A stretch of 64,000 bases of DNA from Parabacteroides merdae ATCC 43184 (GTDB taxonomy: Bacteria; Bacteroidota; Bacteroidia; Bacteroidales; Tannerellaceae): NCBI RefSeq assembly GCF_025151215.1, contig NZ_CP102286.1, positions 3,038,001 to 3,102,000 of the forward strand, in the 5' to 3' direction. This document shows, piece after piece, positions 1,401 through 23,150 of the stretch (within the stretch, counting starts at the first letter, position 1; every line of letters begins with the position of its first letter). Made by a program: the position numbers and the translations under genes. The notes under the pieces were generated by a model, which was not told where the DNA came from, searched no databases, and saw only the letters and a list, made by a program, of their open reading frames with translations.

Positions 1401-1417
1401 TGAATTATATTTTTACA

Positions 1418-2608: not shown

Positions 2609-2611
2609 ATT

Positions 2612-4165: not shown

Positions 4166-4170
4166 TTGAT

Positions 4171-6326: not shown

Positions 6327-6385
6327 TCAGATTGTTTTTTAATTTTTTTATTGTGATCCTAATACGTGTAAACTAACGAAACATG

Positions 6386-7525: not shown

Positions 7526-7561
7526 CGTTGTAATTTATTAGGTAAATAAAATAGGACACAT

Positions 7562-8590
7562 TCATACTAACACAGAAATTTGGTGTATTTGCATCCGGCT
7601 ATAATCACACTTGATACATAGCAGACGATGAAAGTGCCCACGAAGGCGACCAACGGAGTTAACTCTTTGGTATACAAAAATACCCCCCCCCATTCTATAA
7701 TAGATAAGTCTCAGAACTATTTCTTGCATCACATATATTCCCATCGAATTCATTGCGATACTTCGGCATACAGTGTATAGTTTTCCATTGCATCTGTCTT
7801 CCAGTTTTATAAATACAGCGACATAGATAATTGTGACTAATCCATAGCTTACCATTTTAAGAGTATGGTGGACAAACAGGATTAAAACTTTTACTTTCAA
7901 GTCCGATGCCAGTTCCGGACGCATCCCGTCCATTCCCAAAACCAATGTTACCGCAATGAATAACCCCATATAAACAGCCGATAAAATGCATATTGTTGAC
8001 CAATTGACAGTTCTCAGCCGCTCACGATTTCTAAAGAAAATTCCACCAAGATGGAAAAAAAGCAGATAATAAAGCGATTGATTAAAACGGAACGGAATTC
8101 CCGGCCAAGGCAGAATAGCAATAATCATGAGTACTAACATCAAGTTACGTCCCTTGAGACAGTGCTGTATGCCATATTCCATTAAAAAGCACCAAAAGAG
8201 CATCGGAAGAAACCAAAGATGTCCGTATCCCCCAATAATTTTCCAAAAATGTTCCAGATTAAGAAGTTTTGACGGACCAAAGAATATCAATGTCATGATA
8301 ATGCCCCAACACATACACGGTACAAACAGCCGTTTCAGCTTACCGGCTAGTAATAATCGGAAAGAAATGACTTTCTTTTGGAGCGAAAAGGCAAATACAT
8401 ACCCGGAAATCAGGACAAAAGTTTCCAGCATCCCACTGTATGCCAGTTTTCCTCCCCAATAAAATCCTTCATTGGGTTGGGCGTAGGAAGGCATATCCCA
8501 ACCACCGCAATAGGGCGCAAGAGCATGATAGAGCACGAGCAGAATGATTACGAACGTCCTGATAATATCTATTTCCTTAAGTCTTTCCAT
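7562..8590 (-). CDS. membrane acyltransferase (acyltransferase_3 family), apparently phase-OFF by a G9 tract
   Basis: An integral membrane O-acyltransferase opening MERLKEIDIIRTFVIILLVLYH, with LISGYVFAFSL and about ten hydrophobic helices. It probably O-acetylates a sugar of the repeat unit. In the sequence as given it reads 342 aa and ends in a polar, Arg/His-rich tail (VNSVGRLRGHFHRLL). On the coding strand this follows nine consecutive G at 7,683-7,691. Removing one G changes the tail to a hydrophobic helix (LTPLVAFVGTFIVCYV...) ending at a TAG at 7,567-7,569, which looks like the real C-terminus. The start overlaps the upstream glycosyltransferase by 22 bp. Confidence 0.85.
   Translation of the reverse strand: MERLKEIDIIRTFVIILLVLYHALAPYCGGWDMPSYAQPNEGFYWGGKLAYSGMLETFVLISGYVFAFSLQKKVISFRLLLAGKLKRLFVPCMCWGIIMTLIFFGPSKLLNLEHFWKIIGGYGHLWFLPMLFWCFLMEYGIQHCLKGRNLMLVLMIIAILPWPGIPFRFNQSLYYLLFFHLGGIFFRNRERLRTVNWSTICILSAVYMGLFIAVTLVLGMDGMRPELASDLKVKVLILFVHHTLKMVSYGLVTIIYVAVFIKLEDRCNGKLYTVCRSIAMNSMGIYVMQEIVLRLIYYRMGGGIFVYQRVNSVGRLRGHFHRLLCIKCDYSRMQIHQISVLV
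7683..7691 (-). repeat. poly-G (9) tract near the 3' end of an acyltransferase gene
   Basis: Nine C on the given strand, nine G on the coding strand, in ATG-G8-TAT context. With eight G (counting the G of ATG) the codons read ATG GGG GGG GTA and a hydrophobic C-terminal helix follows. With nine the frame enters a polar tail, and with ten a stop follows within about ten codons. Confidence 0.9.
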
Positions 8591-9558
8591 ATATTTTTAA
8601 GGTATTTGAATATGGGATATACACCAAGCAAAGAACCGAAATACTCGATTTTACTGAGAGTACGCATCTTGCTGTGACGAATGACTGTAATACTGTTGAT
8701 TTCCGGATATGTATTGTGCCAAATCCGACGGATTCGCGGCATCAGCATATATCTATCAAGATACATTCTTGAACCAACTTTCAGCGCATTTATCTCGTCT
8801 GTATACTTTTCATAAATACCTTTGGAGCGAAGAAAGGTGAAAATCAGATCAAGATTCTCCTTACGCTGATTGAGTTTATTAATCTGGATCTCAGCACTGC
8901 CATAACTTGTAATTGACGCAGGATTAAAAAAATAGTAATAAAATGGTTTCATCAAGTATCCTACATTCCGGCTATTCCAAACCAATTGGATTATCGTCGC
9001 CAGATCCTCGTTCATATTTTGCCTTGGAAATGTTATCCCATCGTAAAGACTACGTTTGATCAAAGCGCCGCACAAGCTCCCCATCAACCGCCCGCAAAGC
9101 AATGATGACATCAGGAAGTCTTTATTATTGGTAGAAACCTTGCGCGGGGCGGAAGCATATGTAGAAACACCATCACTACGATAGAAATCATAAAAGACCA
9201 TATCGTAATGGCCGGATAGGGCAAAAGTATATAGTTCCTTTATGGCATGCACATCCATCCAGTCATCGCTATCGCAATGAACCGTGTAATCACCAGAGGC
9301 CAATTGAATCCCTTGTCGTCGAACAGCGGCCTGCCCGCTGTTCGACGACAACCTCTCAATTCGTGTCAGCCTCTTTCGATGCGGATATTTTTCCAGAGTT
9401 CTCTGCAAGATCTCCACCGACTTGTCTGGAGAACAATCATCCACAAAGATGTATTCAATGTCATCAAACGTTTGGGCGAACAACGATTCAGCGCACCGCT
9501 CAATATATTCCTCTACTCTATAAATCGGTACAATGATTGATACTTTCGGATTATCCAT
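8569..9558 (-). CDS. glycosyltransferase family 2
   Basis: A 329-aa GT-A inverting transferase. MDNPKVSIIVPIYRVEEYIE and FVDDCSPDKS form the nucleotide-binding half, and HCDSDDWMD near residue 95 is the DxD metal site. A membrane-associated C-terminal region follows. It starts 8 bp inside the predicted ON-form end of the upstream acyltransferase (TAA at 9,551-9,553), suggesting translational coupling. Its own end overlaps the next acyltransferase start. A 17-bp perfect inverted repeat (9,313-9,351) lies in the conserved N-x-G...R-x-G-I region. Sugar unknown. Confidence 0.92.
   Translation of the reverse strand: MDNPKVSIIVPIYRVEEYIERCAESLFAQTFDDIEYIFVDDCSPDKSVEILQRTLEKYPHRKRLTRIERLSSNSGQAAVRRQGIQLASGDYTVHCDSDDWMDVHAIKELYTFALSGHYDMVFYDFYRSDGVSTYASAPRKVSTNNKDFLMSSLLCGRLMGSLCGALIKRSLYDGITFPRQNMNEDLATIIQLVWNSRNVGYLMKPFYYYFFNPASITSYGSAEIQINKLNQRKENLDLIFTFLRSKGIYEKYTDEINALKVGSRMYLDRYMLMPRIRRIWHNTYPEINSITVIRHSKMRTLSKIEYFGSLLGVYPIFKYLKNIWKDLRK
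9313..9351. repeat. perfect 17-bp inverted repeat inside a glycosyltransferase gene
   Basis: Arms 9,313-9,329 and 9,335-9,351 are exact reverse complements with a 5-base loop. They encode LSSNSGQAAVRRQ, the conserved sugar-nucleotide region of family 2 transferases. No T-run follows. Confidence 0.85.
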
Positions 9559-10492
9559 GATTTTTAGCTGTCAGTTTTTTTAATTGTTCTATTCCAAGGG
9601 CAATTAAATAACTCAATGTTATGAAGATAACAAAAGTGATTAAGTTTGAAATTACCCCCCCCCAGTTTTGTGTTATAAAAGCTACTGTTTGTTCTGATAA
9701 AATCCCTGAACAACCACAGAAAAGGAGCGTGTATAGCCATTATCGTGAGTGAATTAGCTCCCAAAGATGCCAATATTCTGTTTGTAGTTGTTATCTTGTT
9801 GAAAGGCTTGAAATTCAACAAAAGATATATGGCACAGAAAGCTCCGGCATAGAATATAAACGGGAAACTGGAAAATTTCAGTTGCGAAATATCAAATTGA
9901 TAATGTGCCAAACGGCAGAACGCTATGATATATCCGGCTATAGCAATAACGGTTGCTTTTTTAATTGCCCCCTCTGCTTGTGTCAGCCCTTTGTCGTTCA
10001 TCCATTTGCCGACAGCATAGAATGGCAAAGAGAACAGCCCCTGCCCGATATAAAACGGCAAATTGATCTTGGAATATGCGACAGCCAGCCCAATTACAAA
10101 AGAAACGATAAGAATAACGTTTTTTCCTTAACGGTTTTGTCCCAAAAATAATATATGACACATATATAAAAAAGAGCGACCAAGAACCACAACGGACCAT
10201 CAAATGCGGCGATATGATGGATGCTCAGTTTATCAAGCGGTATTCCCTGCAACCCCATGCTAAAATAAAATACAGCGAATATCAGAGAATATTCCCCAAA
10301 GGGAATAAGCAACCGTTTTGCTCTTGATTGAATAAATCCTTGTTTGGGATGATAAAACATACCGGCCAAAAAGAAAAACAAAGGCATATGGAAAATACAA
10401 ATTTCCTTTATAAGGATTGCGGTGGCATGTCCCCAAACGACAAGGATTATGCCGATGCCTTTAAGTATGTCTATACGAATGTCCCTTTCCAT
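9551..10492 (-). pseudogene. membrane acyltransferase split by two homopolymer frameshifts (A6 and G9)
   Basis: Two open frames together make one acyltransferase_3-family membrane protein. The first (10,094-10,492) begins MERDIRIDILKGIGIILVVWGHA and has FFFLAGMFYHP and GPLWFLVALFYI. It leaves frame at a run of six A on the coding strand (10,120-10,125) and stops 11 codons later. One extra A, or a -1 slip there, continues as NVILIVSFVIGLAVAYSKI into the second frame (9,564-10,061). A nine-G tract at 9,655-9,663 then shifts the C-terminus again. With eight G it reads VISNLITFVIFITLSYLIAL and ends at a TAA overlapping the next gene's start. Either a reversible contingency gene or a decaying one. 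Confidence 0.8.
9655..9663 (-). repeat. poly-G (9) tract near the 3' end of the split acyltransferase
   Basis: Nine C on the given strand. In CTG-G8-TAA context the current count gives a polar tail. One G fewer gives CTG GGG GGG GTA and a hydrophobic C-terminal helix whose stop overlaps the following glycosyltransferase start codon. Confidence 0.9.
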
Positions 10493-10496
10493 TATT

Positions 10497-10829
10497 TCAA
10501 AAGTTTAAGTTCCTCTTCCTTTCTTCTGCAAGAAATACATCCGCAGCACTATAATCTGCCCAAAGAACTTCTTTGTATTTTTCCTCTTTATCTGTTTCAC
10601 TGATAGTACGTTTCTGCAAACCGATATTATCGAGAAAAGTAATCATGCAGTTGTCCTTATCTCTATTGACAGCAAAGAACGGCATATGAAAAAACGAGCG
10701 CATGAAACGAACCGCCGGTAACAAACATTGTAATTTGACCAAATTAAGGAATTCCAAAAGCCCCGTAACAAGCTGCTGTTTAAAAGGATACAAACCGCAA
10801 CGGAGTGTATTGTATACTGTTGCCACCAC
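10497..10829 (-). pseudogene. probable C-terminal remnant of a polysaccharide pyruvyl transferase
   Basis: A 110-aa frame with only a GTG start. The segment FFHMPFFAVNRDKDN...FLDNIGLQKRTISE resembles the end of polysaccharide pyruvyl transferases, where a His-Gly segment is followed by a PFF-x-V strand and a short helix ending GL-x-x-R. The rest of that family (about 300 residues) is absent, and only 17 bp separate it from the flippase gene. It is most simply a 3' fragment left by deletion. The family assignment is from memory of the pattern and is tentative; a small independent protein is possible. Confidence 0.4.
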
Positions 10830-10845
10830 CTTTATTCCCTACATT

Positions 10846-12375
10846 TTATTGTTTTTTTAAGAACATGAATTTATTTGTTACCGTACTGATTACGAACCCT
10901 CTTTCTTTAGCATCAAGTCCGAATTTATAGATAACAAGTCCGGAAATGATAAGACTGGTCAATACGACAAGTATATGGCTACCCCAGCTTGAGGTTAGAA
11001 ATTTATGCAAAAAGAATGGGACCGGAATGATGCAGACCGACACCCAAAGACACCTAAACATCACTTCCACGACATACCTCCTAACCGGGAAATTCACTTT
11101 GTGTTTGAGATAGAATATTCTGTAACAGTGAGTAATGAAATTGATGGCAATTCTGACAATCACCGCATAGACGGGACTGCAACCGAACTTGAACAATATA
11201 TATATAATCGGAATATTCATAATTATCATCGAAGAAACGGTAAACTGATACTTGGCTATATTGCCTATTGTTTCAGATGACACCCAAAGACTTCCGGATA
11301 ATGCATCAATAAGCAGGAAGATGAGATAAAGCTGAATGAACTGTACTGTATATTGAGGGACACAGACAAGCCATAACTCGACGACAGGCCGACAAATCAA
11401 AATCAACGGATAAGCGACGAAAAAGAGCAGGAAATACGAGAATTTTGACGAGCGGAAAACAAGTTCCAGAAATCTGGATTTATCCCCTGAAAAATAGGAC
11501 TGGACAATCTGTGGCTGCACCGCTTTCTGAAAGTTTGTAACCAAAGTATTGACAGCACTGAACACTTGCGAGGCTACCCCCATTGCCGCATTGACAGCAA
11601 CCGTGAAAAAAATATTCAAAAGTATTGATATGCCTTGTATGGATGCGACATGGGCTATACCGCCGAAAAGGCTCCATGAAGAAAAGAAAAGCATTTCTTT
11701 CAGCAGCTTTCTGTCAAAATAGAACCGGAATCTGCAAGTCATGAAATTACGCTTGCAATAAATGGCATAAATGATATTCAACAATATCCCAACGGTCATA
11801 AGGGCAACGGCGTACAACACCAGACGATTGTCTTCAGCCCAGAAAAGGAGAAATACTGTTCCCAATTTTGCCATTACCTCAATGATGCTGACATAAGCGA
11901 AAAAAGACATCCTCTCATATGCAATAATGCTCGACTCATCAGGAATCCTGATAAAATGAAGACAAGCGGTCACTACAGAAATATGGTACACAACCCGTGC
12001 TGCATCTTGTGTTTCCGGAGGAATATTCAATTTTGTTTCAAAGAAATAGAGCCCCACAGTTTCCAATACGAAGCCGATAAATACCGCTATTGCAAAATGT
12101 ATCAGAAGACTCATGGAATAAACCCTCGAGACTCTGTCATGATTGCCTTTTCCCAATTCCACGTTCAGAAAACGTTGGGTGGCTTTTGTCATTGCGGAAT
12201 TAATAAAAGACAGAAGTGCGATAAAGCCGCCAACAACATTGTATACTCCAAAATCGTTCTCTCCCAACACTTCCAATATAATCCTGGAAGTATATAGAGA
12301 TACGGGCATCATTACGAATGTCCGTATATAAAGCATTAACGTGTTGCGTGCTATGCGTTTGTTTGATGACTGCAT
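10846..12375 (-). CDS. Wzx-like polysaccharide flippase
   Basis: A 509-aa inner-membrane protein with about 12-14 hydrophobic segments. The N-terminus (NTLMLYIRTFVMMPVSLYTSRIILEVLGENDFGVYNVVGG) is characteristic of the Bacteroides branch of the MATE/MOP polysaccharide flippases, which move lipid-linked repeat units to the periplasm. It works between the glycosyltransferases and the EpsG-like polymerase. Length is normal for the family. Confidence 0.92.
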   Translation of the reverse strand: MQSSNKRIARNTLMLYIRTFVMMPVSLYTSRIILEVLGENDFGVYNVVGGFIALLSFINSAMTKATQRFLNVELGKGNHDRVSRVYSMSLLIHFAIAVFIGFVLETVGLYFFETKLNIPPETQDAARVVYHISVVTACLHFIRIPDESSIIAYERMSFFAYVSIIEVMAKLGTVFLLFWAEDNRLVLYAVALMTVGILLNIIYAIYCKRNFMTCRFRFYFDRKLLKEMLFFSSWSLFGGIAHVASIQGISILLNIFFTVAVNAAMGVASQVFSAVNTLVTNFQKAVQPQIVQSYFSGDKSRFLELVFRSSKFSYFLLFFVAYPLILICRPVVELWLVCVPQYTVQFIQLYLIFLLIDALSGSLWVSSETIGNIAKYQFTVSSMIIMNIPIIYILFKFGCSPVYAVIVRIAINFITHCYRIFYLKHKVNFPVRRYVVEVMFRCLWVSVCIIPVPFFLHKFLTSSWGSHILVVLTSLIISGLVIYKFGLDAKERGFVISTVTNKFMFLKKQ

Positions 12376-12441
12376 TTATAACTATCCTACATTTTTTAAT
12401 CTCAATTGCAACCTGAATGACAATAGAGTGTCAGGGGCAAA

Positions 12442-13536
12442 TCAATTGGTCTGATGGTATATAGAAGCTAACTTTTCCACACCGTCTGCAAGCGTGAACC
12501 GACTGGATATTACTTTTGATTTTCTACCCATCATTTCTCGGACTTCACGATTATTGACAAGTATCTCAATCCTGTCAGCAAGCTCTTCAACATTCTCTTT
12601 TTCAAAAAGATATCCGTTTTCTCCCTCATGTACGATTTCAGGAATGCCCCCAACTCGTGTACCAATAACAGGCAACGAATAGTTTAGGGCCTCCATAATA
12701 CTAAGAGAAAGTCCTTCTGTACGGGAAGGCTGCAAGTAAATATCAGAAATATTCAAAATATCATTAATGTCATTTCGTATTCCCAAAGACATAATCTTTC
12801 TATTCAATCCGGCCTCGGCAATCAATTGCCTCAAGCTATTACTGTCTTCAGAATTTTCGCTAATTCCGATGACAAGCACTATTATATCGTTTTTAAGTCT
12901 GTTGGAGTCCATCAGACTCTGAATACTTTTGACAAGTATATCGAATCCCTTGATACGAATATTGAATCCGATTGTAGTCAACACGACTACCCCCTTTGGT
13001 ATGTCCAATGTTTTTTTCAGATTTGGGTTGACAATCTTTTTTTTCCGGACTCCCAAGTATAGGACTTCACTCTTTGAAGAAAAACCTACGCCTTCAATCA
13101 TTTCTTTCTTTACGCCACAACTGACACAAAGGAATCTTTCAAAAGGAAAAAAACAGAACTTCAGATATAATTTTTTAAGTTTGTTGGAAACAAAGATTTC
13201 ACTATGACGGGTTGAAATAATCCGAATCCGGGGAAACAGAATTCGCAAGAATGGTGCAATAAGATAACTTCCAAAATGAAAATGAACAATGTCTATTTTC
13301 TCACGTTTGATGACACCTATCACAAATTTGAAATATTGAAATGTGGAAATGCTTTGTTTACAAAGTATTACCCCCCCACACTTATTGATGTCATTTACAT
13401 AGTTTTCACTGATTGGCATCGACTCGTATACAAAAATAAATTTATCAACACGGCATATCTTGACCAATTCAGCGAAGTAGGATTCTACTCCGCCGTATTT
13501 AGTCGATTTCATACCTGTCAGTTCTAAAATATTCAT
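12442..13536 (-). CDS. glycosyltransferase family 4 with an in-frame G7 tract
   Basis: A 364-aa GT-B transferase. I choose the ATG at 13,536 (MNILELTGMKSTKYGGVESY), 7 bp after the upstream stop. A longer frame from 13,563 would overlap that gene. The C-terminal motifs are TTIGFNIRIKGFDILVKSI and PSRTEGLSLSIMEALNYSLPV (E-x7-E). Around residues 53-55 the codons TGT GGG GGG GTA contain seven G (13,371-13,377), in the same Gly-Gly-Val context as the longer tracts of this operon. The gene is currently in frame; slippage would truncate it early. Confidence 0.9.
   Translation of the reverse strand: MNILELTGMKSTKYGGVESYFAELVKICRVDKFIFVYESMPISENYVNDINKCGGVILCKQSISTFQYFKFVIGVIKREKIDIVHFHFGSYLIAPFLRILFPRIRIISTRHSEIFVSNKLKKLYLKFCFFPFERFLCVSCGVKKEMIEGVGFSSKSEVLYLGVRKKKIVNPNLKKTLDIPKGVVVLTTIGFNIRIKGFDILVKSIQSLMDSNRLKNDIIVLVIGISENSEDSNSLRQLIAEAGLNRKIMSLGIRNDINDILNISDIYLQPSRTEGLSLSIMEALNYSLPVIGTRVGGIPEIVHEGENGYLFEKENVEELADRIEILVNNREVREMMGRKSKVISSRFTLADGVEKLASIYHQTN
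13371..13377 (-). repeat. poly-G (7) tract inside a glycosyltransferase gene, in frame
   Basis: Seven C on the given strand within codons TGT GGG GGG GTA. It is the shortest of four G tracts of like context in the operon and is in the ON register as given. Confidence 0.85.
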
Positions 13537-13543
13537 ATATTCA

Positions 13544-14755
13544 CTATTTTTTAAATATTCCACAAAAGTCCAATATCACCTTATCCTCTCGCCATTCTAA
13601 TTCTTTGAACGGAGTGTGTGCTGTAAGGAATACCACGATGTCCGCCTTGTCGTAGGCTTCTTTGTAATCTGTTAACTTGAACACATGGTGCTCCTTTACA
13701 TTGGGTTCCACAACCAGGATATTGGCATTATTGCAACTCTGCATCACTTTCGTGGTAATATATTTTGCAGGACTCTCGCGCAAATCGTCGATATTCGGTT
13801 TGAAAGCCAACCCCATCATGGCAACGCACGGTTTCCGATGATGTTTCAGTTCAAATTCCAGCATGGCATTTTTCACTTTTTCTGCGCACCAAAAACTTTT
13901 GTAGTTGTTAATTTCACGGGCATCGGCAATCAATTTACTCTCTGCTGGAAAATCAGCAGTGATAAAATAAGGGTCAATAGCTATACAATGACCTCCCACG
14001 CCACAACCAGGCTGCAAGATGCTAACCCGCGGATGTTTGTTGGCAAGATTGATAAGTTCCCACACATTGATACCGGCCTTGTCACAAATCAAGGAAAGTT
14101 CATTCGCAAAGGCTATTTGTACATCCCGACTGGAATTCTCCGTCAGTTTGCACATTTCAGCAGTACGACAGTTGGTTCTATGAAGTGTTCCCTGCACGAA
14201 TTGAGAATAAAATCCAATGGCCTTATCGGTAGATTCAGGATTTAAACCGCCTATGACCCGGTCGTTATGTATCAGTTCGTAAATCACATTGCCCGGCAAT
14301 ACACGTTCGGGACAATAAGCCACATAAATCCTATCTTCCAATTCAGGACGTTCGCTGAAAATGAGGCGGGCCATCGCTTCGGTGGTGCCTACGGGTGAAG
14401 TGGACTCGATGACATAAAGGTCGCCTTCCTTTAATAATGGCAATACGGCACGTGTAGCGGCTTCCACATAACTAACGTCCGGTTCATGATTTCCTTTGAA
14501 CGGGGTGGGAACTACCATAAAATAAGCATCGCTCACCTCCGGCTTTATGGAAGCTTTCAACGAGCCGGCATTCACCACCTCCTGCAACATCTCCTCCATA
14601 CCCGGCTCAATGATATGCAGATGTCCTGCATTCGTCATATCCACTACCTGGGGGTTAATATCAACTCCTGTAATCTGAATGCCGTGCTTGGCGGCGATAA
14701 TGGCTGTGGGCAATCCGATATACCCCAAGCCCATAAAACAAGCTTTCATTATCAA
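13544..14755 (-). CDS. wecC: UDP-N-acetyl-D-mannosamine dehydrogenase
   Basis: A 403-aa NAD-dependent dehydrogenase that oxidises UDP-ManNAc to UDP-ManNAcA in two steps. The N-terminal Rossmann motif is GLGYIGLPTA. The catalytic cysteine lies in GCGVGGHCIAIDPYF near residue 250, and AMMGLAFKPNIDDLRESP is the C-terminal domain signature. A second ATG two codons in (14,749) is equally plausible. It pairs with the epimerase at 240-1,400. Other nucleotide-sugar dehydrogenases share these motifs, but the epimerase partner makes WecC the best reading. Confidence 0.93.
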   Translation of the reverse strand: MIMKACFMGLGYIGLPTAIIAAKHGIQITGVDINPQVVDMTNAGHLHIIEPGMEEMLQEVVNAGSLKASIKPEVSDAYFMVVPTPFKGNHEPDVSYVEAATRAVLPLLKEGDLYVIESTSPVGTTEAMARLIFSERPELEDRIYVAYCPERVLPGNVIYELIHNDRVIGGLNPESTDKAIGFYSQFVQGTLHRTNCRTAEMCKLTENSSRDVQIAFANELSLICDKAGINVWELINLANKHPRVSILQPGCGVGGHCIAIDPYFITADFPAESKLIADAREINNYKSFWCAEKVKNAMLEFELKHHRKPCVAMMGLAFKPNIDDLRESPAKYITTKVMQSCNNANILVVEPNVKEHHVFKLTDYKEAYDKADIVVFLTAHTPFKELEWREDKVILDFCGIFKK

Positions 14756-14779
14756 TCTGTTATATAAGTTATTAATCTT

Positions 14780-15823
14780 TTAAAATTTCTTTCCGAGTAC
14801 AATTGAACAGAATGTGTTCAACAGAATTTTAAAGTCGAACCACCATGAGCGATGTCCTAAATAATAAAGGTCATATTCCAAACGTCGGAGCATCTTCTCC
14901 ATCGTATCCGTATAGCCGTTATATAGTGTGGCATATGATGTTACGCCCGGACGGATTTGGTAAAGATAAGTATATCGCTTGTCGTGTTCAAGTATCTGGT
15001 CGATATAAAACTTACGCTCCGGACGTGGACCGATGAATGCCATATCGCCACGCAGAACATTGTAGAGTTGGGGTAATTCATCCAAATGGTGCGCCCGGAT
15101 GAAACGACCGGTCTTAGTCAATCGGGAATCATTTTCACCCCCGGTATGACTAAGCTGCGGTCCGAACTTCTCGGCATCCAGACGCATGGAGCGGAATTTG
15201 TATATGTAGAACGGGCGCCCGAATCTGCCGATACGTTCTTGCTTGAAGATGACACTTCCTCCATCTTCCCTGCGAATGGCAATGTAGCAAAACAGGAATA
15301 GCGGAGAAAAAATGATCAATGCAATCAATGACAGGATAAAATCACCGATACGCTTTACATTGCGCGCAAATGCGGACATTCCATCGGGAATGAAACTGTC
15401 CCGTGGCACATATTGGCTGACATGTGTGGTGACAATTATTGCATCATCATTCGGGTCATCCTTTTTCAGCTTATGCAACCACTTCTGATAAGCATTAAAA
15501 TTTATTGTATCTGCCATTTTTAACTTTATATAGGTCTCAGTTTGTGAACCTACCTCAACAGAACCTTGCAACAATGAAACAAGGGATTCTCCGGATGTAA
15601 CCGTACACGGCATCTGAAGACAGTCTGAGTAACTACGAAAATTCATGTAGCCTTGTTGTTTATCAAAAAGACGTAAACCGTATGCGGAATAACCGTATGC
15701 ACACCATGCACCGATCTGTTTATTCCGATACAAGTGGATATAAGAACCATCATTTTGATTTTCGTTTTCCCTTATAAGATGAACATTCATAAAAGTATAT
15801 TGTTTATAATTTATCGTAAGCAC
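14780..15823 (-). CDS. initiating sugar transferase (polyprenyl-phosphate glycosylphosphotransferase)
   Basis: A 347-aa protein that transfers a sugar-1-phosphate to undecaprenyl phosphate to begin the repeat unit. After a soluble N-terminal part it has one membrane segment (GDFILSLIALIIFSPLFLFC near residue 170). The catalytic core follows: VIFKQERIGRFGRPFYIYKF, HHLDELPQLYNVLRGDM and FIGPRPE. The full WcaJ-type N-terminal membrane bundle is missing, so it is a short form. An alternative start at 15,790 (MNVHLIREN) would drop 11 residues. Confidence 0.92.
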   Translation of the reverse strand: MLTINYKQYTFMNVHLIRENENQNDGSYIHLYRNKQIGAWCAYGYSAYGLRLFDKQQGYMNFRSYSDCLQMPCTVTSGESLVSLLQGSVEVGSQTETYIKLKMADTINFNAYQKWLHKLKKDDPNDDAIIVTTHVSQYVPRDSFIPDGMSAFARNVKRIGDFILSLIALIIFSPLFLFCYIAIRREDGGSVIFKQERIGRFGRPFYIYKFRSMRLDAEKFGPQLSHTGGENDSRLTKTGRFIRAHHLDELPQLYNVLRGDMAFIGPRPERKFYIDQILEHDKRYTYLYQIRPGVTSYATLYNGYTDTMEKMLRRLEYDLYYLGHRSWWFDFKILLNTFCSIVLGKKF

Positions 15824-15873
15824 AAAGCACTATACATTTGACTAATAATCAAGAGGTTTCCTGATCGCATCTA

Positions 15874-16095
15874 TTCTATTTCACCTAAGACATACTTGTG
15901 GGGGCATGACGAAGAAGTTCCATTCCTCACACGAAGGACAACAGAATCTTTGATAGAGGAACAATCGTGATTATCGTCAATGTTGTTAATGCAGCTTCGT
16001 ATCCGACCACTGTCTGGACCAAAGCCATAGCTGTTATGGCATGAGCCGTAGTGAAACCATGCATAACAACATTGGATATAAAAATATCAGTGTCT
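15874..16095 (-). pseudogene. unidentified open frame without a start, possible gene remnant
   Basis: Between the broken ATPase gene and the sugar transferase the minus strand is open for about 70 codons to a TAG at 15,874-15,876. The translation is rich in Cys, His and Trp (CCYAWFHYGSCHNSYGFG, then DCSSIKDSVVLRV and CPHKYVLGEIE). It begins straight after a stop, with no plausible ATG. I do not recognise the family. It may be the 3' end of a gene deleted together with the ATPase, or chance. Confidence 0.3.
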
Positions 16096-16114
16096 TTTAT
16101 TCTAAGATTAAAGA

Positions 16115-16508
16115 TTATACCAAATCCTGTTGATTGTACAAGTCTTGTTGCAATTTAGTCAACGGACGTAGATGAATGTCCGTTTCATTCTCCAGAAAAC
16201 CAAAAATGATACGTTTCTGAAGGGAAGGAGTTATGGTCATCCCATCGTATTGATTTTCCATCATCTTCATATAGCTCTTATCCCATGCCTTACGTTTCCA
16301 GATAATTTCTTCCGCCACTTCCATTCTTGCCGACAATGGCACTTATTGTCACCCCCGCAGCAAAGAAATTCCTTTCAAGCGACCTGCACTCATCACCATA
16401 GCCATTGAACTGATATTGTTCACCTTGTTTCAAGATGCGCAGTACGTTCCTGTTCCAGCGGTCATCCTTTCGGATTACAAGGCTCGTCAATGCAAAATTT
16501 GCAATCAT
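16115..16508 (-). pseudogene. broken P-loop ATPase gene
   Basis: The frame starting at 16,508 overlaps the phosphatase stop as ATGA, so it was the next coupled gene. It reads MIANFALTSLVIRKDDRWNR and reaches a Walker A beginning (ISAIVGKNGSG, near residue 63). There the expected Lys-Ser/Thr is replaced by GRNYLET and a stop. The next frame (EEIIWKRKAWDKSYMK...) continues from the same point to 16,115. The N-terminus and a C-terminal-like piece have evidently been joined by an internal deletion of most of the ATPase domain. Confidence 0.7.
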
Positions 16509-17215
16509 TGATCACTTTGTTTCTGTAAGGTTCCAATGACTTCCGATTTTACTGCCGAAGCGACCAATGTCTTGTAACAGCCTATGGCATGGATGTCACA
16601 ACCGGTACGGTCGTACATTCCGGCTTTCAGCAGGGCTTCGGCCTTTTCCTGTACATGTTTTCCGTACATTCCGGCCAACGAGGGCAAATTGAGTTGGAAG
16701 GAGACATGCTCTTCCTTCAAGGCCTGATAATCCCTCTTCTGCATATATTCATACCGTTCCGAATGTGCAAGCAACGGGTAATAACCTTTCTTTTGGATGC
16801 GTTGCAGGACAGAGAGCAGTTCCATTGGTGGATTGAAATAGGAGGTTTCCACCAACAGGTAACGTTTCCCCTCCTCTAGGGGCAGCAGGTCATCTTTTTC
16901 CAGCCGTTCCTCAAAGAGATTGTCCATCATGTATTCCGCAGCCAAGGCAAGTTCCAGTGTGCCGTTATAACTCCGTTTCAATTCTTGGAACTTTTCCTGC
17001 AAGGTCACAGTTTCATTAGGGATGTCCTCCATGATGTGCGGCGTGAGCCATACCTTTCTGACTCCATGCTTTTCCATCATATCTAGAATTCGGAGTGATT
17101 CATCCAATGTTCCCACTCCGTCATCCACTCCCGGAAGGAGATGGCTGTGACAGTCGGTCATTCCTTTCAGGATACCGCTCCGGGCGAAGGTTATTGTCTT
17201 ACGAAAGGGCCACAT
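16505..17215 (-). CDS. CpsB/YwqE-type tyrosine-protein phosphatase (PHP domain)
   Basis: A 236-aa metal-dependent phosphatase that dephosphorylates the Wzc kinase tail. Signatures are TDCHSHLLPGVDDG near residue 20, LTPHIMEDIPNET, AAEYMMD and LLAHSERYEYM; these supply the His/Asp/Glu metal ligands of the PHP fold. The start at 17,215 (MWPFRKTITF) is chosen because the upstream extension to 17,269 would overlap the kinase gene and looks non-coding. Kinase and phosphatase adjacent is the usual capsule regulatory pair. Confidence 0.92.
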   Translation of the reverse strand: MWPFRKTITFARSGILKGMTDCHSHLLPGVDDGVGTLDESLRILDMMEKHGVRKVWLTPHIMEDIPNETVTLQEKFQELKRSYNGTLELALAAEYMMDNLFEERLEKDDLLPLEEGKRYLLVETSYFNPPMELLSVLQRIQKKGYYPLLAHSERYEYMQKRDYQALKEEHVSFQLNLPSLAGMYGKHVQEKAEALLKAGMYDRTGCDIHAIGCYKTLVASAVKSEVIGTLQKQSDQ

Positions 17216-17265
17216 GATAGTTGAGTTAAAATTAAAAGTTCTTACGAGAACGATAACATGCAAAA

Positions 17266-19683
17266 TCAATCACTTGATGACCATCCATTTACCCCCCCCA
17301 TTTTTCCTTTATTTCCATAATAGGAAGAGTAGCCGTTGCGATAGCCATATCTATAGCCATAGCGGCCTCCGGCACTTTCTGTACCGTTCAGTATCACGCT
17401 GAGGTTCTTGAAACGTTTCTCCTGGTAAATATTTTCTAGTTCGGGCAGCATGCTACGGTCCAATAAACCGCTGCGGACTACAAAGACGGTGCGGTCAGCC
17501 AGTTTCTCGATGATCTGCGCATCGGCCACGATATCGATAGGCGGACAGTCAATAAAGATATAGTCATACTCGCTGCGAAGCACCTCTATCAAAGTGGCCA
17601 GTTTGCCGTCCTCCAACAGTTCCGTCGGGTTTGGGGGAACAGTACCGATAGGAATGATATGCAGGTTGTCGTATTTTTCATCCTTCACGATAATCTCCTT
17701 CCAGTCACTGACACGGTTGCCCAGATAATCACTTAAACCAGTCTTCGGGGAATCCACGTAGGAGGAGGTGGAGCCGTGACGCAGGTCACCGTCTATCACC
17801 AATATTCTCTTTTTCTTGATGGCAAAGCTCATGGCAATGTTCATGGCAAGGAACGACTTGCCGCTGCCAGGATTAAACGAGGTAAGCATGAACACGTTCT
17901 GACCGCTGTCCTTGCCTGCCATAAAGTCAATATTGGAACGTAACACGCGGAACGCTTCATTGATAATGTTACGGTTGCCTTCCTTCACCACGATGGCTTT
18001 CATGACAGACTGTGTGTGTTTATCGAATCCCAATTTCTTCTTAGCACTGAGATATTGGGGGATCTCACCGATGAACGGAATGCTTAGGTTTTCCAGATCC
18101 TTTCGCCCGCGCACCTTGGTATTCATGTTTTCCTTCATGAAAATAATCACCGCCGGAACAAGCAGACCGATGGCGAATGCCACCAAAAGGATATTCATCT
18201 TTCGGGGGGCTGTGGGAAGCATGCTGCCTCTCGGAGCGGTAATCACACGTGTATTGTAGGCGGTGAAAGCCTGTGAAAGCTCGTTCTCCTCACGTTTCTG
18301 GAGCAGATAAAGATACAGTTCCTCCTTCACCTTCTGCTGGCGTTCCACAGAAAGCAGATATTTCGCCTGGTTCGGGTTGGAAGCCAGTTGGCTGGTGGTC
18401 GTGGCTTCCTGTTGGCGGATGTTGCGTATTTGGGTATTGAGCGAAACAATCAGGTTGTCCACCGACTGAATGATGGTACGCTGCATGCTTTGCAGTGAGT
18501 TAGCCATGTCTTTTGCCAGAGGGTTCTTCTCGCTACTGTTGGCGATCAGGCGGTTACGTTCGAGCACGATCGTGTTATATTCACCGATCTGGCTCTCGAT
18601 ATTGACATTAGCGATACCGGAGTTGGTGGGTAACAGCTGGCTGAGTTTCTTGTTGTTCAACTCTTTCCGGATATACTGTGCGGTGGAAAGCTGGCTGTTG
18701 AGTGCCAGCAACTCCTTCTTGTTCTCGGCGGACTGGGACAGGTAGAGGCTGGATGCCGCCTGCACATCCGGCAGCAGGTGCTCACTCTTGTAACCGGCGA
18801 TGTTCTCATCTACATTGCCCAGCTCGTTTTCGATCACGCTCAGACGGTCACCGATGAACTGCGAAGTACTGACGGCGATCTGGTTCTTGTCCTGAATCCA
18901 TTTCTCGTTGTACATTTCAATCAGGGTGTTCAGAATGTCTTCAGCCTTCTGAATGGAGGCATCGTTGATACTCAGATTGATAATGGTGGCATCCTCGTTT
19001 CCCAATTCCGCATGCAAAGCGGCTGTATAATAATCGGTGACGGCACACACATTACCTTTTCTATAACGTATGGAAGTGCCCACGAATGAATCGTTCCAAT
19101 ATTTTGTGAAATTGATGACAAGTGTGCCTATTTCAGTACGGATGGAATCGCCCATCTTTCCGGAGAAATCTTCCCCAAACGCTTTCCCGTTTACTTCCAT
19201 GTCGGATATGACAAACGTTTCTTTGGATGAAATATCTATTGTAAAACCGACAGGAGTTTCATCCAAGTGGCGATAGGTGACTGCTAAAGGCGAACTTTTG
19301 TATAATTCCACATCTTTCAGTCCTTTGCGGACAGTATAGGTCTCGTTTAATCCCAACCGCTGTACCACCTCGGTCATCAGCGTGGGCGATTTCAGGGTGA
19401 GCAACTCATTGTTGATATTGGTATTCGACTTGAAGATACCCAAGTCAGAAAATTCACTGACCACATTGGTGGATGTTCCTCCCTTGGAATCATCTTTCAC
19501 CAAAATGGCAGCGGTACGGGTGTAAATGTTCGGGGTGCCCAGCAGGTACAAGGCGGCTGTCGCCAGGGTTACGAACAGGGAGAGGGCAAACCAGTGCCAC
19601 CGGGGCATGAAAATCCCCCACAGGTCTTGTATGCGTATGAAGTCGTCAGCAGGCTTGCTGGCGGTTGTTTTCTTTTCTGTCAT
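17266..19683 (-). CDS. Wzc-like polysaccharide co-polymerase and tyrosine kinase
   Basis: An 805-aa inner-membrane protein that controls chain length and export. From the ATG at 19,683 (MTEKKTTASKPADDF) it has a Wzz domain with a first membrane segment (WFALSLFVTLATAALYL), a long periplasmic coiled-coil region and a second membrane segment. The cytoplasmic BY-kinase domain follows, with Walker A FNPGSGKSFLAMN, Walker A' ILVIDGDLRHG and Walker B YIFIDCPP. The tail is a tyrosine cluster (YGYRYGYRNGYSSYYG). The last codons cross a G8 tract (17,292-17,299), so slippage would alter only the final residues after the Tyr cluster. Confidence 0.95.
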   Translation of the reverse strand: MTEKKTTASKPADDFIRIQDLWGIFMPRWHWFALSLFVTLATAALYLLGTPNIYTRTAAILVKDDSKGGTSTNVVSEFSDLGIFKSNTNINNELLTLKSPTLMTEVVQRLGLNETYTVRKGLKDVELYKSSPLAVTYRHLDETPVGFTIDISSKETFVISDMEVNGKAFGEDFSGKMGDSIRTEIGTLVINFTKYWNDSFVGTSIRYRKGNVCAVTDYYTAALHAELGNEDATIINLSINDASIQKAEDILNTLIEMYNEKWIQDKNQIAVSTSQFIGDRLSVIENELGNVDENIAGYKSEHLLPDVQAASSLYLSQSAENKKELLALNSQLSTAQYIRKELNNKKLSQLLPTNSGIANVNIESQIGEYNTIVLERNRLIANSSEKNPLAKDMANSLQSMQRTIIQSVDNLIVSLNTQIRNIRQQEATTTSQLASNPNQAKYLLSVERQQKVKEELYLYLLQKREENELSQAFTAYNTRVITAPRGSMLPTAPRKMNILLVAFAIGLLVPAVIIFMKENMNTKVRGRKDLENLSIPFIGEIPQYLSAKKKLGFDKHTQSVMKAIVVKEGNRNIINEAFRVLRSNIDFMAGKDSGQNVFMLTSFNPGSGKSFLAMNIAMSFAIKKKRILVIDGDLRHGSTSSYVDSPKTGLSDYLGNRVSDWKEIIVKDEKYDNLHIIPIGTVPPNPTELLEDGKLATLIEVLRSEYDYIFIDCPPIDIVADAQIIEKLADRTVFVVRSGLLDRSMLPELENIYQEKRFKNLSVILNGTESAGGRYGYRYGYRNGYSSYYGNKGKMGGVNGWSSSD
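17292..17299 (-). repeat. poly-G (8) tract in the Wzc tail
   Basis: Eight G on the coding strand in ATG GGG GGG GTA, identical in codon context to the predicted ON register of both acyltransferase tracts. One extra G would replace the last residues (VNGWSSSD) with a short different tail. Confidence 0.9.
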
Positions 19684-19718
19684 ATTATAAAAATATAAAG
19701 TGATTCCTTTTCTGAAGG

Positions 19719-20513
19719 TTACTTGAATATTAGCACACCCAACGAAGTGAGGAATGAAGCGACGCTGATCCATAGCGATACGGACTTCACGTTATTCTCG
19801 TTGATGGTGCTCTGACCGGCACGCATCTTATTGGGCTGCACATAAATCACATCGTTTTGCTTCAAATAGTAGACCGGAGATTTAAAAATGTCCTTACTAC
19901 GAAGATCTACCCAGTGGGTGACACGCTCACCGTTTTCCTCGCGGATGACAAAGATAGCATCACGTTTACCGGTAATGGTCAAGTCGCCCGCCATGCTGAT
20001 GGCTTCAAGCAAAGTGATCTGGTCTTTGGTTATGTTGTACTTGCCGGGGGTTTTTACCTCACCTAACACGGAGAAATAGAGATTCATGAACTCTACGGTC
20101 ACTACCGGATCTTTCACCAAGTCCTCTTCCATCAGCCGTTTCTTGATAAGGGCGGCAATCTGGCTTTTGGTCATACCGGCAATATGAAGCGTACCAATGA
20201 CCGGAAAGTCTATGTTTCCCTTGTCATCGAGCGTGTAACCGGATATTTCACCATTATTGTTGCTACTACGTAAATCGGCAGTTCCTGCCCGATACTGGAC
20301 ACGTGTCAGGTTGAACAACGCTGCCAACTGCGGGTCTTTACTGGATACCATGATGGAAATTTGGTCCTTGGGCTGCACGGTGATGTCTCTTGCACCCACA
20401 ATCGCTTCAGGCTGATTCACAGCAATGTCTTGAAAGTAAAGAATCTCCTTCGAAGTGTGACAGGATGTAAACAACACTATCGCAAAGAGATAAATCAAAA
20501 ATCGATTCTTCAT
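19719..20513 (-). CDS. Wza-like polysaccharide export outer-membrane lipoprotein
   Basis: A 264-aa exported lipoprotein forming the outer-membrane channel for the polymer. The start at 20,513 gives a lipoprotein signal (MKNRFLIYLFAIVLFTSC); a longer frame from 20,558 lacks one. The PES domain (GARDITVQPKDQISIMVSSKD) is followed by SLBB-type repeats (LHIAGMTKSQIAALIKKRL; VLGEVKTPGKYNI) and a C-terminal hydrophobic segment. It ends 35 bp before the Wzc start, and the two proteins work as a pair. Confidence 0.94.
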   Translation of the reverse strand: MKNRFLIYLFAIVLFTSCHTSKEILYFQDIAVNQPEAIVGARDITVQPKDQISIMVSSKDPQLAALFNLTRVQYRAGTADLRSSNNNGEISGYTLDDKGNIDFPVIGTLHIAGMTKSQIAALIKKRLMEEDLVKDPVVTVEFMNLYFSVLGEVKTPGKYNITKDQITLLEAISMAGDLTITGKRDAIFVIREENGERVTHWVDLRSKDIFKSPVYYLKQNDVIYVQPNKMRAGQSTINENNVKSVSLWISVASFLTSLGVLIFK

Positions 20514-20605
20514 ATTTATATCTGTACAGTTTATATTATTTCTAATTTGTAATTTCAATTAATTTTTATCGTGATTTTTGCGAAGTCCCGTAAAAGCCAG
20601 CGGTT

Positions 20606-21178
20606 TTAGGAAAGAACTTCAATCAGATCGGGGTGCACCTCAGCGGAAACGGCCATGACACCCTCCAATAGGACAACCACCCTACGGTTTCTCTTGCCCT
20701 GCACCCGCACAAACATGCCCTTCACGTTATCGAACTTGCCACCGTGGATACATACACGCATTCCTCTTTTCAAGTCTATTTCTTCGGGCCTATAATAAAC
20801 AGTGTCCTCCTCATAATGAGAAGCTATCTTGATGAAGCTGTCCATCTGGTCATCCGGTACGGTAATATATTCCACCCCCGTGCTCTTTTCCCACATGGCG
20901 AATTGCAAGAAATTGTATCGTTTCTTGAATTCAGTGATCTGCGAATGGCTGGCGTGGACGAAAAGCAGACTCGGTATAACCGGCACCAACTTTTTTGACT
21001 TCACTCCATGATAAGTTCTTACGGCATAATGTTTCGGGATAAAATATTCCAAACCATATTCCTTGTCTTTCAGCCTGTCCTCTGCCATTTTCTCATTCTT
21101 GTAGGCGCGCATGACGAACCATCGGACCTGCCTTTTTTCCTCCGCTGTAAAAAGACTCGTACTCATATTCCGAAACAT
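20606..21178 (-). CDS. UpxY-family transcription antiterminator (NusG-like)
   Basis: A 190-aa first gene of the operon. It has a NusG N-terminal domain (VRWFVMRAYKNEKMAEDRL, YFIPKHYAVRTYHG, LVPVIPSLLFVHAS) and a KOW-like C-terminal domain (LKRGMRVCIHGGKFDNVKGMF). UpxY proteins are locus-specific antitermination factors that let polymerase read through the leader of their own capsule operon (established for Bacteroides fragilis). No UpxZ gene follows. A start at 21,166 is also possible. The leader upstream holds two hairpins and the invertible-looking promoter region. Confidence 0.93.
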   Translation of the reverse strand: MFRNMSTSLFTAEEKRQVRWFVMRAYKNEKMAEDRLKDKEYGLEYFIPKHYAVRTYHGVKSKKLVPVIPSLLFVHASHSQITEFKKRYNFLQFAMWEKSTGVEYITVPDDQMDSFIKIASHYEEDTVYYRPEEIDLKRGMRVCIHGGKFDNVKGMFVRVQGKRNRRVVVLLEGVMAVSAEVHPDLIEVLS

Positions 21179-21205
21179 TTTATAGGTGTGGATATAAACC
21201 TAGTT

Positions 21206-21272
21206 CATGCCAACCTACATATTGGCATGTATTACAATGGATTACGTTCCCTTTTCCCATAATATCCATTGT
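21206..21272 (-). promoter_or_regulatory. structured leader of the polysaccharide operon
   Basis: Two perfect inverted repeats lie just upstream of the UpxY gene: CATGCCAA at 21,206-21,213 with its complement at 21,222-21,229, and ACAATGGAT at 21,234-21,242 with its complement at 21,264-21,272. They could fold in the untranslated leader on which UpxY proteins act. The role is inference. Confidence 0.45.
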
Positions 21273-21332
21273 TAGTTCCATACTTTTGACAAAGTGTACA
21301 GACCTCATTTCCGGGGCTTCCGTCACTACTTC

Positions 21333-21541
21333 TCTTGGCAAGAGAAATATTAGAGGACCATATTTTATGTAATTAATTGATAGACAAGCAGAAAAGCGAA
21401 GTGGCATTGTGGCGTTTATCCAATATATGTTAAGCAAATACACTCTGTATGAATGTTTTGGTTATATTTTATCACCTGTTTTCTATCGTTTCTTCAATAT
21501 TTTACATAACTTTGCACATTGTAATATTTCTCTTGCCAAGA
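21333..21541. promoter_or_regulatory. invertible promoter segment 1, promoter pointing away from the operon
   Basis: A perfect 20-bp inverted repeat (TCTTGGCAAGAGAAATATTA at 21,333-21,352; its complement at 21,522-21,541) encloses 169 bp. Inside, next to the right arm, TAACTTTG at 21,507-21,514 matches the Bacteroides -7 box on the + strand and so faces right, away from the capsule genes. Inversion would turn it towards the UpxY gene. This matches the known layout of Bacteroides capsule promoters; inversion itself is not visible in one sequence. Confidence 0.75.
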
Positions 21542-21679
21542 AAATGAGCCGTATGCTCAACAATTTTTATTATATTACAAAATGCTTTCAAAAACCTTTC
21601 AAACGCATCTGGTTTTAAATTGTCAATAAGAACATTTCCAACAGTATTCTGCCACTGTATTCATAGATCTTTTCCGGTA

Positions 21680-21883
21680 CTTTTCTTTTTAAGAGAAATA
21701 TTAGACATTGCAAAGATAGGTAAAATATAGGAAAATATCCACCTGTATGATAAAAAACAGTTTTCTTCGAAAGAAAATGTTTCAAATTCCGGTTTAATTG
21801 TCAAACAAATCCTTGTCAGGTTCCATATATAGCATCTGATTATCAGAACTATCCCTTTCCGGTATTTCTCTTAAAAAGAGAAG
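21680..21883. promoter_or_regulatory. invertible promoter segment 2, promoter pointing towards the operon
   Basis: Arms 21,680-21,700 and 21,863-21,883 are inverted repeats matching at 20 of 21 positions, with the core AAGAGAAATA shared with segment 1. The 162-bp interior has CAAAGATA at 21,711-21,718, a TATCTTTG -7 box on the minus strand facing the operon. The -33 box is weak. A 7-bp hairpin (TTTTCTT/AAGAAAA, near 21,761-21,777) also lies inside. Less certain than segment 1 because of the single mismatch and AT-rich arms. Confidence 0.6.
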
Positions 21884-21929: not shown

Positions 21930-21940
21930 TTCCCGTTATA
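21930..21940. repeat. possible att repeat, left copy of element 1
   Basis: TTCCCGTTATA overlaps the stop codon of the left recombinase and recurs in the same orientation at 32,326-32,336, just beyond the right recombinase. An 11-bp match at both edges fits a duplicated attachment core, but it is short. Confidence 0.35.
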
Positions 21941-23150
21941 AAGATTTAAGTATGATGTCATTTGCTTTGTCTACCTGTGAGGTGTCCAGTGAGGCGAGGT
22001 AGATTTTGGTCGTGTTCTCCGAATCATGTCCCATCGCCTCGCTGATGGTTGCCAGCGGGACATTTTTGCTTCTGGCAATACTCGCCCAGGCATGGCGCGC
22101 TACATACATCGTGAGCGGCATGCCGAGCCCGAGCCGTTTCCCAAGTTCTTTGAGTTTCCCGTTGATGAAATGCGCTGTGCTCCTGTACTGCCGCACGGCA
22201 TCCTTAGCCGTATCTTTGATGACCGGAAAAAGGTAGGGGCTGTCATTGTGGCCATACCTGTCCAGTATCTCCTGCATGGGTTTCTCCCATTTAATGGACA
22301 GACGCCGTCCGGTTTTCTGCCTGCGGTAGGTTAGCACACCGCTCTTCAGATCAGCTTTTTTCAGGTAGGCAATGTCAACGAACGACATGCCACGGGTATA
22401 AAAGCTCAGCATGAACATGTCCCTGGCGTATTCCATGCCCGGGGAAATGCGAAGGTCCAGATCGCGTATCATGCGGATCACTTTCAACGGAACAGCACGT
22501 TTTACGGTCTTGTCTATCCCGGTGTAGACATGTTTGAAAGGGCTGCGCTGTATCGTCAGTTCCTTGTCCACCGCACGGTTGTAGACGGCACGCAGGTTCC
22601 GCATATAATAGGAGGTGCTGTTCGGACATATCCCCTTGTCCTTCAGCCATGCCTCGTATTCCAGCATGAGGGTGGAGCCGATATCCTCCAGCGGGATGTC
22701 GCCGTCCCTGCCCCGAAAGCGCGTGAAGCTGTTCAGTACGGTGGTGTACCTCTCGGCGGTGCGCTTCTTGCCGACACGCTCCAGTTCCTCCACGAGCCTC
22801 TTTCCGAAGGCCATGAAATTATGGCTGTCCTCAGGGGGCGGGTTGTGAAAAAGTTCGACAACCCTGCCGGCGGGATAGGTACCGCCGGAACGTTCCAGTC
22901 CGGCAATGATACTTTCCAGACGGCGGATGTCTTTTTCCATCCGCTCCTTTAACGCAAGCAGAAGGCTTCTTCTGGCATCACCGGATACCGGCAGTATGAT
23001 TTCCGACATGCGTCCGTCCCATTCCGAAGGGAACAGCCTGTAGCCGGTGTTTATCTGGCGCGCCACCCTTCCGTGGATGATCTGGAAATAGAGCGTTCCC
23101 TCCCTGCCTTCCACGGACGAGGACCTGAATTTGGTTTTGATTGTTGCCAT
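21936..23150 (-). CDS. tyrosine recombinase (element 1, left integrase)
   Basis: A 404-aa site-specific recombinase with Bacteroidetes Arm-DNA-binding and SAM-like N-terminal domains. The C-terminal catalytic domain has Arg in SFYTRGMSFVDI, the box II segment MYVARHAWASIARSKNVPLATISEAMGH and the nucleophile Tyr in KIYLASLD. I choose the start at 23,150 (MATIKTKFRSSS). It lies 7 bp after the preceding gene, at the end of the mobilization operon. It also lies 50 bp from the invertible promoter cassette, so it could integrate the element, invert the promoters, or both; sequence alone does not decide. Confidence 0.9.
   Translation of the reverse strand: MATIKTKFRSSSVEGREGTLYFQIIHGRVARQINTGYRLFPSEWDGRMSEIILPVSGDARRSLLLALKERMEKDIRRLESIIAGLERSGGTYPAGRVVELFHNPPPEDSHNFMAFGKRLVEELERVGKKRTAERYTTVLNSFTRFRGRDGDIPLEDIGSTLMLEYEAWLKDKGICPNSTSYYMRNLRAVYNRAVDKELTIQRSPFKHVYTGIDKTVKRAVPLKVIRMIRDLDLRISPGMEYARDMFMLSFYTRGMSFVDIAYLKKADLKSGVLTYRRQKTGRRLSIKWEKPMQEILDRYGHNDSPYLFPVIKDTAKDAVRQYRSTAHFINGKLKELGKRLGLGMPLTMYVARHAWASIARSKNVPLATISEAMGHDSENTTKIYLASLDTSQVDKANDIILKSL

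Follow-up and report, generated by a model that had tools for sequence, protein, structure and literature searches.

Two tandem, probably invertible promoters with pair-specific site cores precede a capsule operon in Parabacteroides merdae

The capsule operon in the window (the whole stretch of 64,000 nucleotides analysed here, from a Parabacteroides merdae genome of one 4.38-Mb contig) is preceded by two promoter-bearing segments, each bounded by a pair of palindromic sites, and this arrangement is a real double capsule switch that is probably functional. We consider it likely that the segments are tandem invertible promoters serving one capsule operon, driven by the adjacent tyrosine recombinase TR1, addressed by the cores of their sites, and flipping independently to give an OR-type or graded output. 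A double architecture is already known (PMC8748976); the likely new element is that each switch has its own core as address and flips on its own, in contrast to a shufflon. Features of the locus, in window coordinates, are:

240..20558, minus strand: capsule operon
20606..21178, minus strand: upxY-family transcription antiterminator gene, first gene of the capsule operon (NF033644, 154.1 bits, cutoff 100)
21330..21346, unstranded: site 1, TTCTCTT-GGC-AAGAGAA, at the operon-side end of segment 1
21338..21536, unstranded: segment 1, operon-proximal, predicted invertible, from the centre of site 1 to the centre of site 2; promoter OFF in the assembly
21507..21514, plus strand: -7 box TAACTTTG of predicted promoter 1, a match to TAnnTTTG facing away from the operon (OFF)
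21528..21544, unstranded: site 2, TTTTCTT-GGC-AAGAGAA read on the minus strand
21545..21680, unstranded: spacer separating the two site pairs
21681..21697, unstranded: site 3, TTTTCTT-TTT-AAGAGAA
21689..21874, unstranded: segment 2, recombinase-proximal, from the centre of site 3 to the centre of site 4; promoter ON in the assembly
21711..21718, minus strand: -7 box TATCTTTG of predicted promoter 2, a match to TAnnTTTG facing the operon (ON)
21866..21882, unstranded: site 4, TTCTCTT-TTT-AAGAGAA read on the minus strand
21936..23150, minus strand: TR1, tyrosine recombinase of 404 aa, likely start ATG at 23150

Beside the predicted invertible segments lies the tyrosine recombinase gene TR1, whose product contains Phage_integrase and SAM_5 domains and, judged by eye, keeps R, K, R, H and Y-like catalytic residues. 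A longer TTG-started reading frame extends to 23285, and three other TR1 relatives are encoded in the same genome. The operon on the other side has the form of an UpxY-controlled capsule operon with the UpxY-family gene first, and encodes Wza-like export, Wzc-like and CpsB/CapC proteins, a sugar transferase, a UDP-sugar dehydrogenase, glycosyltransferases, acyltransferases, EpsG, a heparinase-like protein and an epimerase; one 509-aa reading frame of the operon had no Pfam match.

The first-pass annotation had described four copies of AAGAGAAATA in alternating orientation (21340-21349 +, 21525-21534 -, 21691-21700 + and 21863-21872 -) at regular spacings of about 165-185 bp. All four positions and strands are exact, and the copies lie 185, 166 and 172 bp apart. 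The motif occurs five times in 64 kb against 0.27 expected, a count reached in none of 100 shuffles; the fifth copy, at 27582 (-), has a context without the palindrome described below and was therefore taken as a chance occurrence. The inverted repeats reported earlier were likewise confirmed: copies 1 and 2 lie inside a 23-nt inverted repeat of 96% complementarity that contains the claimed perfect run of 20 nt, and copies 3 and 4 inside a 21-nt repeat complementary at 20 of 21 positions (95%). That reading saw the repeats and overlooked both the palindromic nature of the sites and the differing centres of the pairs. Every copy is half of a palindromic site, TTCTCTT-NNN-AAGAGAA, whose centre, read towards the bounded segment, is GGC at sites 1 and 2 and TTT at sites 3 and 4; all three centre bases differ between sites 2 and 3 and between sites 1 and 4. 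The segments have in common a 55-nt stretch, inverted, at 78%, and therefore look like relatives of each other. An extra palindrome, TTTTCTT-CGA-AAGAAAA, lies inside segment 2 at 21761-21777 with its partner site absent; it is also found in P. massiliensis, and falls below threshold at both loci of a further genome, G004.

Each segment holds one match to the Bacteroides -7 consensus TAnnTTTG, 13 nt from an inner arm, and the boxes face away from the operon in segment 1 and towards it in segment 2, as first reported. A -7 promoter, predicted by sequence only, thus lies between the inverted repeats of each pair. By itself the motif is common in the region (five found, 2.6 expected, with 23 of 200 shuffles reaching five); its placement is not due to chance. 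Among 67 core-matched site pairs in the window and its relatives (nested pairs counted separately), 52 of the 55 boxes that lie within 20 nt of an inner arm sit 12-14 nt away from it. Forty-nine of the 55 face the recombinase (OFF) and six the operon (ON), segment 2 of the window being one of the six. When counted by segment, 49 of 61 have a box within 30 nt of an arm and the other 12 have none. Since the -7 box stands 13 nt from one inner arm, a flip would turn the promoter towards or away from upxY. A TGTTRAGCAAA-like motif, possibly an accessory or regulator site, recurs by eye about halfway along several segments (21428-21438 in the window, and loci L079, L100 and L166).

Both orientations of segment 2 are observed when species are compared with one another. 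A same-genus search of 38 genomes gave matches in four: the window's own (G000), P. massiliensis (G014), G004 with its two loci, and G007. Relative to the window, 21680-21883 is reversed in P. massiliensis (99% identity) and at both G004 loci (82%), the surroundings are colinear, and the breakpoints fall in sites 3 and 4. Sites 3 and 4 differ by one outer-arm base, which remains with its own flank while the inner flanks trade places; the exchange therefore lies within the 17 nt common to both sites, TCTTTTTAAGAGAAATA. Segment 1 is colinear: the four Parabacteroides loci all have it in a single orientation, each with an undamaged -7 box 13 nt away from the arm. At one G004 locus (L096/L084) the core of sites 1 and 2 alike has changed from GGC to GGA, so that the change is compensated. 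G007 gave a 55-nt match only, and its stretch (L085) is without a cassette; two family-level genomes matched over no more than 39 and 27 nt, and viral contigs had no match to two exact patterns.

Operon-proximal segments are inverted alone in relatives. Between an Alistipes MAG (L028) and B. cutis (L069), the operon-proximal pair alone is inverted, at 95.6%. The pMMCAT plasmids carry a TR1-family gene upstream of upxY, with pair cores TCT and CAT, and a plasmid search gave 20 records, of which 16 (the reference's own included) are near-identical and colinear over 98-100%, one is colinear at 87.6%, two are partial, and one, NZ_CP072238, is inverted. In NZ_CP072238 the operon-proximal segment alone is inverted relative to the reference: once that segment of the reference is flipped, 1 mismatch is left in 891 bp, compared with 139 when it is not, and the box then faces the operon. 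A compensated core change of CAT to TGT at both ends (L167) is present in the second pair of the 87.6% record. The two partial records (NZ_OY725773.1 and NZ_OY725776.1, from one P. distasonis isolate) are marked complete and end inside the other segment's two sites, which is only suggestive of both orientations of that segment being present, with mis-assembly from mixed orientations. With segment 2 inverted between species and the operon-proximal segment inverted in relatives, the initial reading of the locus, as a cassette of two invertible promoters ahead of the capsule operon, is supported. A 2/3 or 1/4 inversion was not found among the differences between the double cassettes compared here. 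Three-site loci (L042, L044, L045, L123 and L052) have a single core, CTT or CGT, at all sites, so that alternative inversions are possible; between L123, in the window's genome, and L042, the long segment has moved with its direction kept and the short segment is reversed, a difference that two successive inversions between same-core sites would explain.

Core matching extends across the TR1 family. We scanned 104 regions (64 loci of TR1 relatives, 37 whole-genome loci, the window and two G004 loci), leaving out the ten most distant matches (L146-L155), duplicates (L099, L135-L137) and one further set of stretches; the scan took in at most 1.4 kb 3' of the recombinase gene and ignored the three centre bases. 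At the stricter threshold, no site was found in 49 regions, one in 15, at least two in 40 and at least four in 10, several of the 104 regions ending at contig ends; not every TR1 relative, therefore, uses these arms. Centres match in 54 of the 72 site pairs that lie 150-320 bp apart; in 10,000 permutations the number of matches averaged 3.0 and never exceeded 12. In the remaining 18, the two sites come from different pairs, or an orphan or extra site takes part. When near-copies are removed (31 regions), 38 of 50 pairs match.

When neighbours were chosen by spacing (182-215 bp) with the centre ignored, 46 pairs resulted, thinned to 37, with the plasmid loci L167 and L168 added. Positions -1, 0 and +1 each agree in 36 of the 37 thinned pairs, against 14.0, 10.3 and 16.5 expected. 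Positions -2 and +2 agree in all 37, against 18.4 and 31.3 expected, but since the scan counted them as arm, selection is absent only at -1 to +1. The single exception at the centre positions is L027 305, which has an orphan as its second site. Agreement is also in excess in the inner tail (+8 to +11), and little so in the outer flank. In eight non-redundant double loci, agreement over the core (-2 to +2) is 1.00 within a pair, 0.38 across pairs and 0.48 between loci, compared with 0.74, 0.72 and 0.54 for the inner tail; cores therefore follow the pair, and arms follow the locus and presumably its enzyme. No cross-pair core match occurs in 14 double loci, some of them near-copies, although this is not proof of avoidance, because 61% of shuffles likewise have no shared triplet. 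Core avoidance between a locus's pairs is not significant, shuffled pairs being equally dissimilar in 10%. Judged by eye, T occupies core position -1 in the recombinase-proximal pair of 8/8 loci and in the operon-proximal pair of 2/8, which suggests that the two kinds of pair may be two old lineages.

Double cassettes stand ahead of capsule-type operons in the window, L029, L079 and pMMCAT, and ahead of DUF3575 + DUF3868 operons in L020, L028 and L039, with a fimbrillin gene next in L020. A tree of 80 recombinases places all nine of its double loci in one 24-row group (fork support 84) nested in a 42-row branch (support 98). The tree omits L018, L028 and L118 (stop in translation), proteins shorter than 380 aa, and others including L079 and the plasmid loci; L036, whose contig ends early and whose 607 nt are identical to L079, was set as double by hand.

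Together, these patterns fit a scheme in which the palindromic arms (TCTC...GAGA plus the inner tail) would be the part recognised by TR1, the likely enzyme for both segments, and the core of about 5-7 bp between them would be the crossover region that sets which sites pair. GGC would then join GGC to flip segment 1 and TTT would join TTT to flip segment 2, and the mismatched cores would block 2/3 and 1/4 inversion. If cores decide pairing in this way, the segments should flip independently and give four states. We expect both segments to flip in this strain, segment 1 because its counterparts flip in relatives and because its core change is compensated. One promoter facing upxY, either one, would suffice for the operon to be ON, which would make the output OR-type. 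A transcript from promoter 2 crosses sites 3, 2 and 1 before upxY and one from promoter 1 crosses site 1 alone, so that the distal promoter transcribes three palindromic sites and the proximal one only one. Given the inverse relation in B. fragilis of transcription to the inverted repeats that separate promoter from gene (cited in PMC4747536), the output may be graded. With moderate confidence we propose a more general two-part site address, in which enzyme-fixed arms, together with a variable core that specifies the partner site, let one TR1-family enzyme run two insulated serial switches of a surface operon (capsule or fimbria) with four heritable graded states.

Several alternative explanations bear on parts of this scheme. 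The first-pass annotation had expected several inversions, as in a small shufflon, with all four sites inter-recombining (1/2, 3/4, 2/3 and 1/4, plus deletions). The same arms at all sites and their alternating orientation would suit such a cassette. Some Bacteroides integrases, such as IntDOT of CTnDOT, are reported to tolerate mismatched crossover regions, and tolerance of that type would weaken the case for a blocked 2/3 inversion. Even so, a shufflon is very unlikely here: the cores of sites 2 and 3, and of 1 and 4, share no centre base, the two sites of a pair almost always have identical cores throughout the TR1 family, none of the 14 double loci has a cross-pair match, and all aligned differences (the Parabacteroides 3/4 inversion, L028/L069, pMMCAT and the three-site locus) join same-core sites. 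The expectation of shufflon-like inversions is therefore not upheld. That segment 2 alone is live, segment 1 being a relic locked OFF, accords with the single orientation of segment 1 in all four Parabacteroides loci; we regard it as quite unlikely, given that both sites are kept with the GGC to GGA change compensated, that the -7 box has held its place in 4/4 loci, and that the operon-proximal segment of relatives flips.

As for the enzyme, TR1 adjoins mobilisation genes (relaxase, MobC) and might serve a mobile element, with the acting recombinase encoded elsewhere. MobC and relaxase genes follow TR1 at four capsule loci, the genome offers three further TR1 relatives, and one B. fragilis recombinase has a distant promoter among its targets (PMC4747536). 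This alternative seems unlikely, since mob homologues were undetected in the fetched flanks of most of the 64 relatives, TR1-family genes in those relatives often directly adjoin such sites, and the neighbouring module has a second tyrosine recombinase of its own (30980-32227) near its right end. The palindromes might, finally, act in the leader as RNA hairpins (attenuators) only and not as recombination sites. The RNA of site 1 folds at -8.5 kcal/mol (sites 2 and 3 at -3.1 and -1.3), and work in B. fragilis cited in PMC4747536 relates transcription inversely to the number of inverted repeats that lie between promoter and gene. Hairpins alone would not lead one to expect precise inversions with breakpoints at the sites, nor centres that match between sites about 190 bp apart, and we consider this extremely improbable. 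The leader fold from 21710 to 21170 (-) is more stable than shuffles (z -5.2), which is what any inverted repeat would give. A terminator between promoter 2 and upxY was also considered; only a weak 5-bp hairpin lies there (TGAGC-ATACG-GCTCA followed by TTTTC, 21559-21545 on the minus strand, -6.0 kcal/mol), its end pair being T-A in the window and T-G in three relatives, and we do not use it as an argument.

Core-addressed tandem switching, the reading we prefer, has several known neighbours. The closest is IP-ARG-2, reported in 2022 from ICE14-type elements, with two adjacent invertible regions below one invertase, for which a single enzyme was suggested (PMC8748976). The window likewise has two side-by-side promoter regions directly downstream of one invertase, with similar repeats and different promoters, and so agrees with that report's definition of a double invertible region; its cargo, however, is a capsule operon and not resistance genes, and we therefore do not file it as IP-ARG-2. 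Such invertases are often found on conjugative elements beside glycan loci, which are named as the likely ancestors (PMC8748976). The parts of that text covered here describe similar repeats and do not describe a pair-specific core. Calling the double arrangement unusual, as was done at first, is too strong in view of this report and of the 14 double loci (some near-copies). The pMMCAT plasmid EPS locus also resembles the window in having a TR1-family recombinase (61%), two differently cored pairs and upxY first, but is plasmid-borne and has other core triplets (TCT, CAT); its invertase appears in the invertase tree of PMC8748976, in the covered parts of which the double cassette is not described.

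In the Tsr19/BF2766 EPS promoter IVp-I of B. fragilis, a tyrosine recombinase likewise lies beside an invertible polysaccharide promoter (PMC4747536, PMC3090145), and repeats are duplicated at the segment ends, with output dropping with the repeats passed (cited in PMC4747536). IVp-I, likened here by description, is one local segment with duplicated repeats, unlike the two pairs of the window. The CPS switches of P. distasonis (IR GCTACTYRGNRAGTAGC; PMC12118408) share the variable-centre palindrome, the preceding integrase and NusG-headed operons, but have other arms and one region of 314-345 bp per operon. The R64 shufflon and its recombinase Rci also combine several sites per recombinase with a 7-bp core between arms (PMC11852207). 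The R64 core is fully conserved among sites and the segments shuffle, whereas the window core differs between pairs (GGC vs TTT) and is not common to all sites. Mpi/serine-invertase capsule promoters use a serine recombinase and the repeat ARACGTTCGTN (PMC8375218); the window, with an adjacent tyrosine recombinase and a different site sequence, does not belong to that group. The pair-specific core rule was not found in the literature searched, a weak absence, as the key 2019 inverton paper, and supplementary files in general, lay outside the scope of the search.

Gut Bacteroidales use invertible promoters as one of their main means of phase variation. If cores are addresses, sequence alone could predict partner choice in multi-site loci, inversion callers could distinguish genuine pairs from similar-looking ones, and it could be asked whether capsule expression from two-switch operons is graded or ON/OFF. 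The loci would also supply naturally occurring sites that are insulated from one another and served by a single recombinase.

The module beginning with TR1 (21936-32494) also contains relaxase, MobC, DUF3408, KilA-N and second tyrosine recombinase genes, and is probably a mobilisable element. It adjoins capsule loci in the window, in P. massiliensis and twice in G004, with 94-98% identity in aligned blocks. Its right end, GCGTTTACTTTA at about 32494, is sharp, with unrelated DNA beyond, in the three loci whose stretch reaches there. We considered site 4 as a possible attachment site for this element, with TR1 as its integrase, and rejected this because the identity break with P. massiliensis lies inside TR1 near 22610 and not at site 4, and because the common module ends sharply at about 32494 beside the second recombinase. 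The capsule island is 98-99.7% identical to that of P. massiliensis over 3110-21700 and 94-97% identical in matched blocks rightward to about 32499, its left end not being reached; two stretches of the P. massiliensis island (about 2.4 and 2.7 kb) have no match in the window. On the capsule side past upxY, the G004 loci have either diverged or lack a match. This pattern suggests a recent transfer of the capsule locus together with its switch. A tandem repeat of TGACATCTGATGACATATAA-type units occupies about 26235-26310 of the window, and in the second G004 locus (L096) about 6.8 kb lie between the two sides of this repeat.
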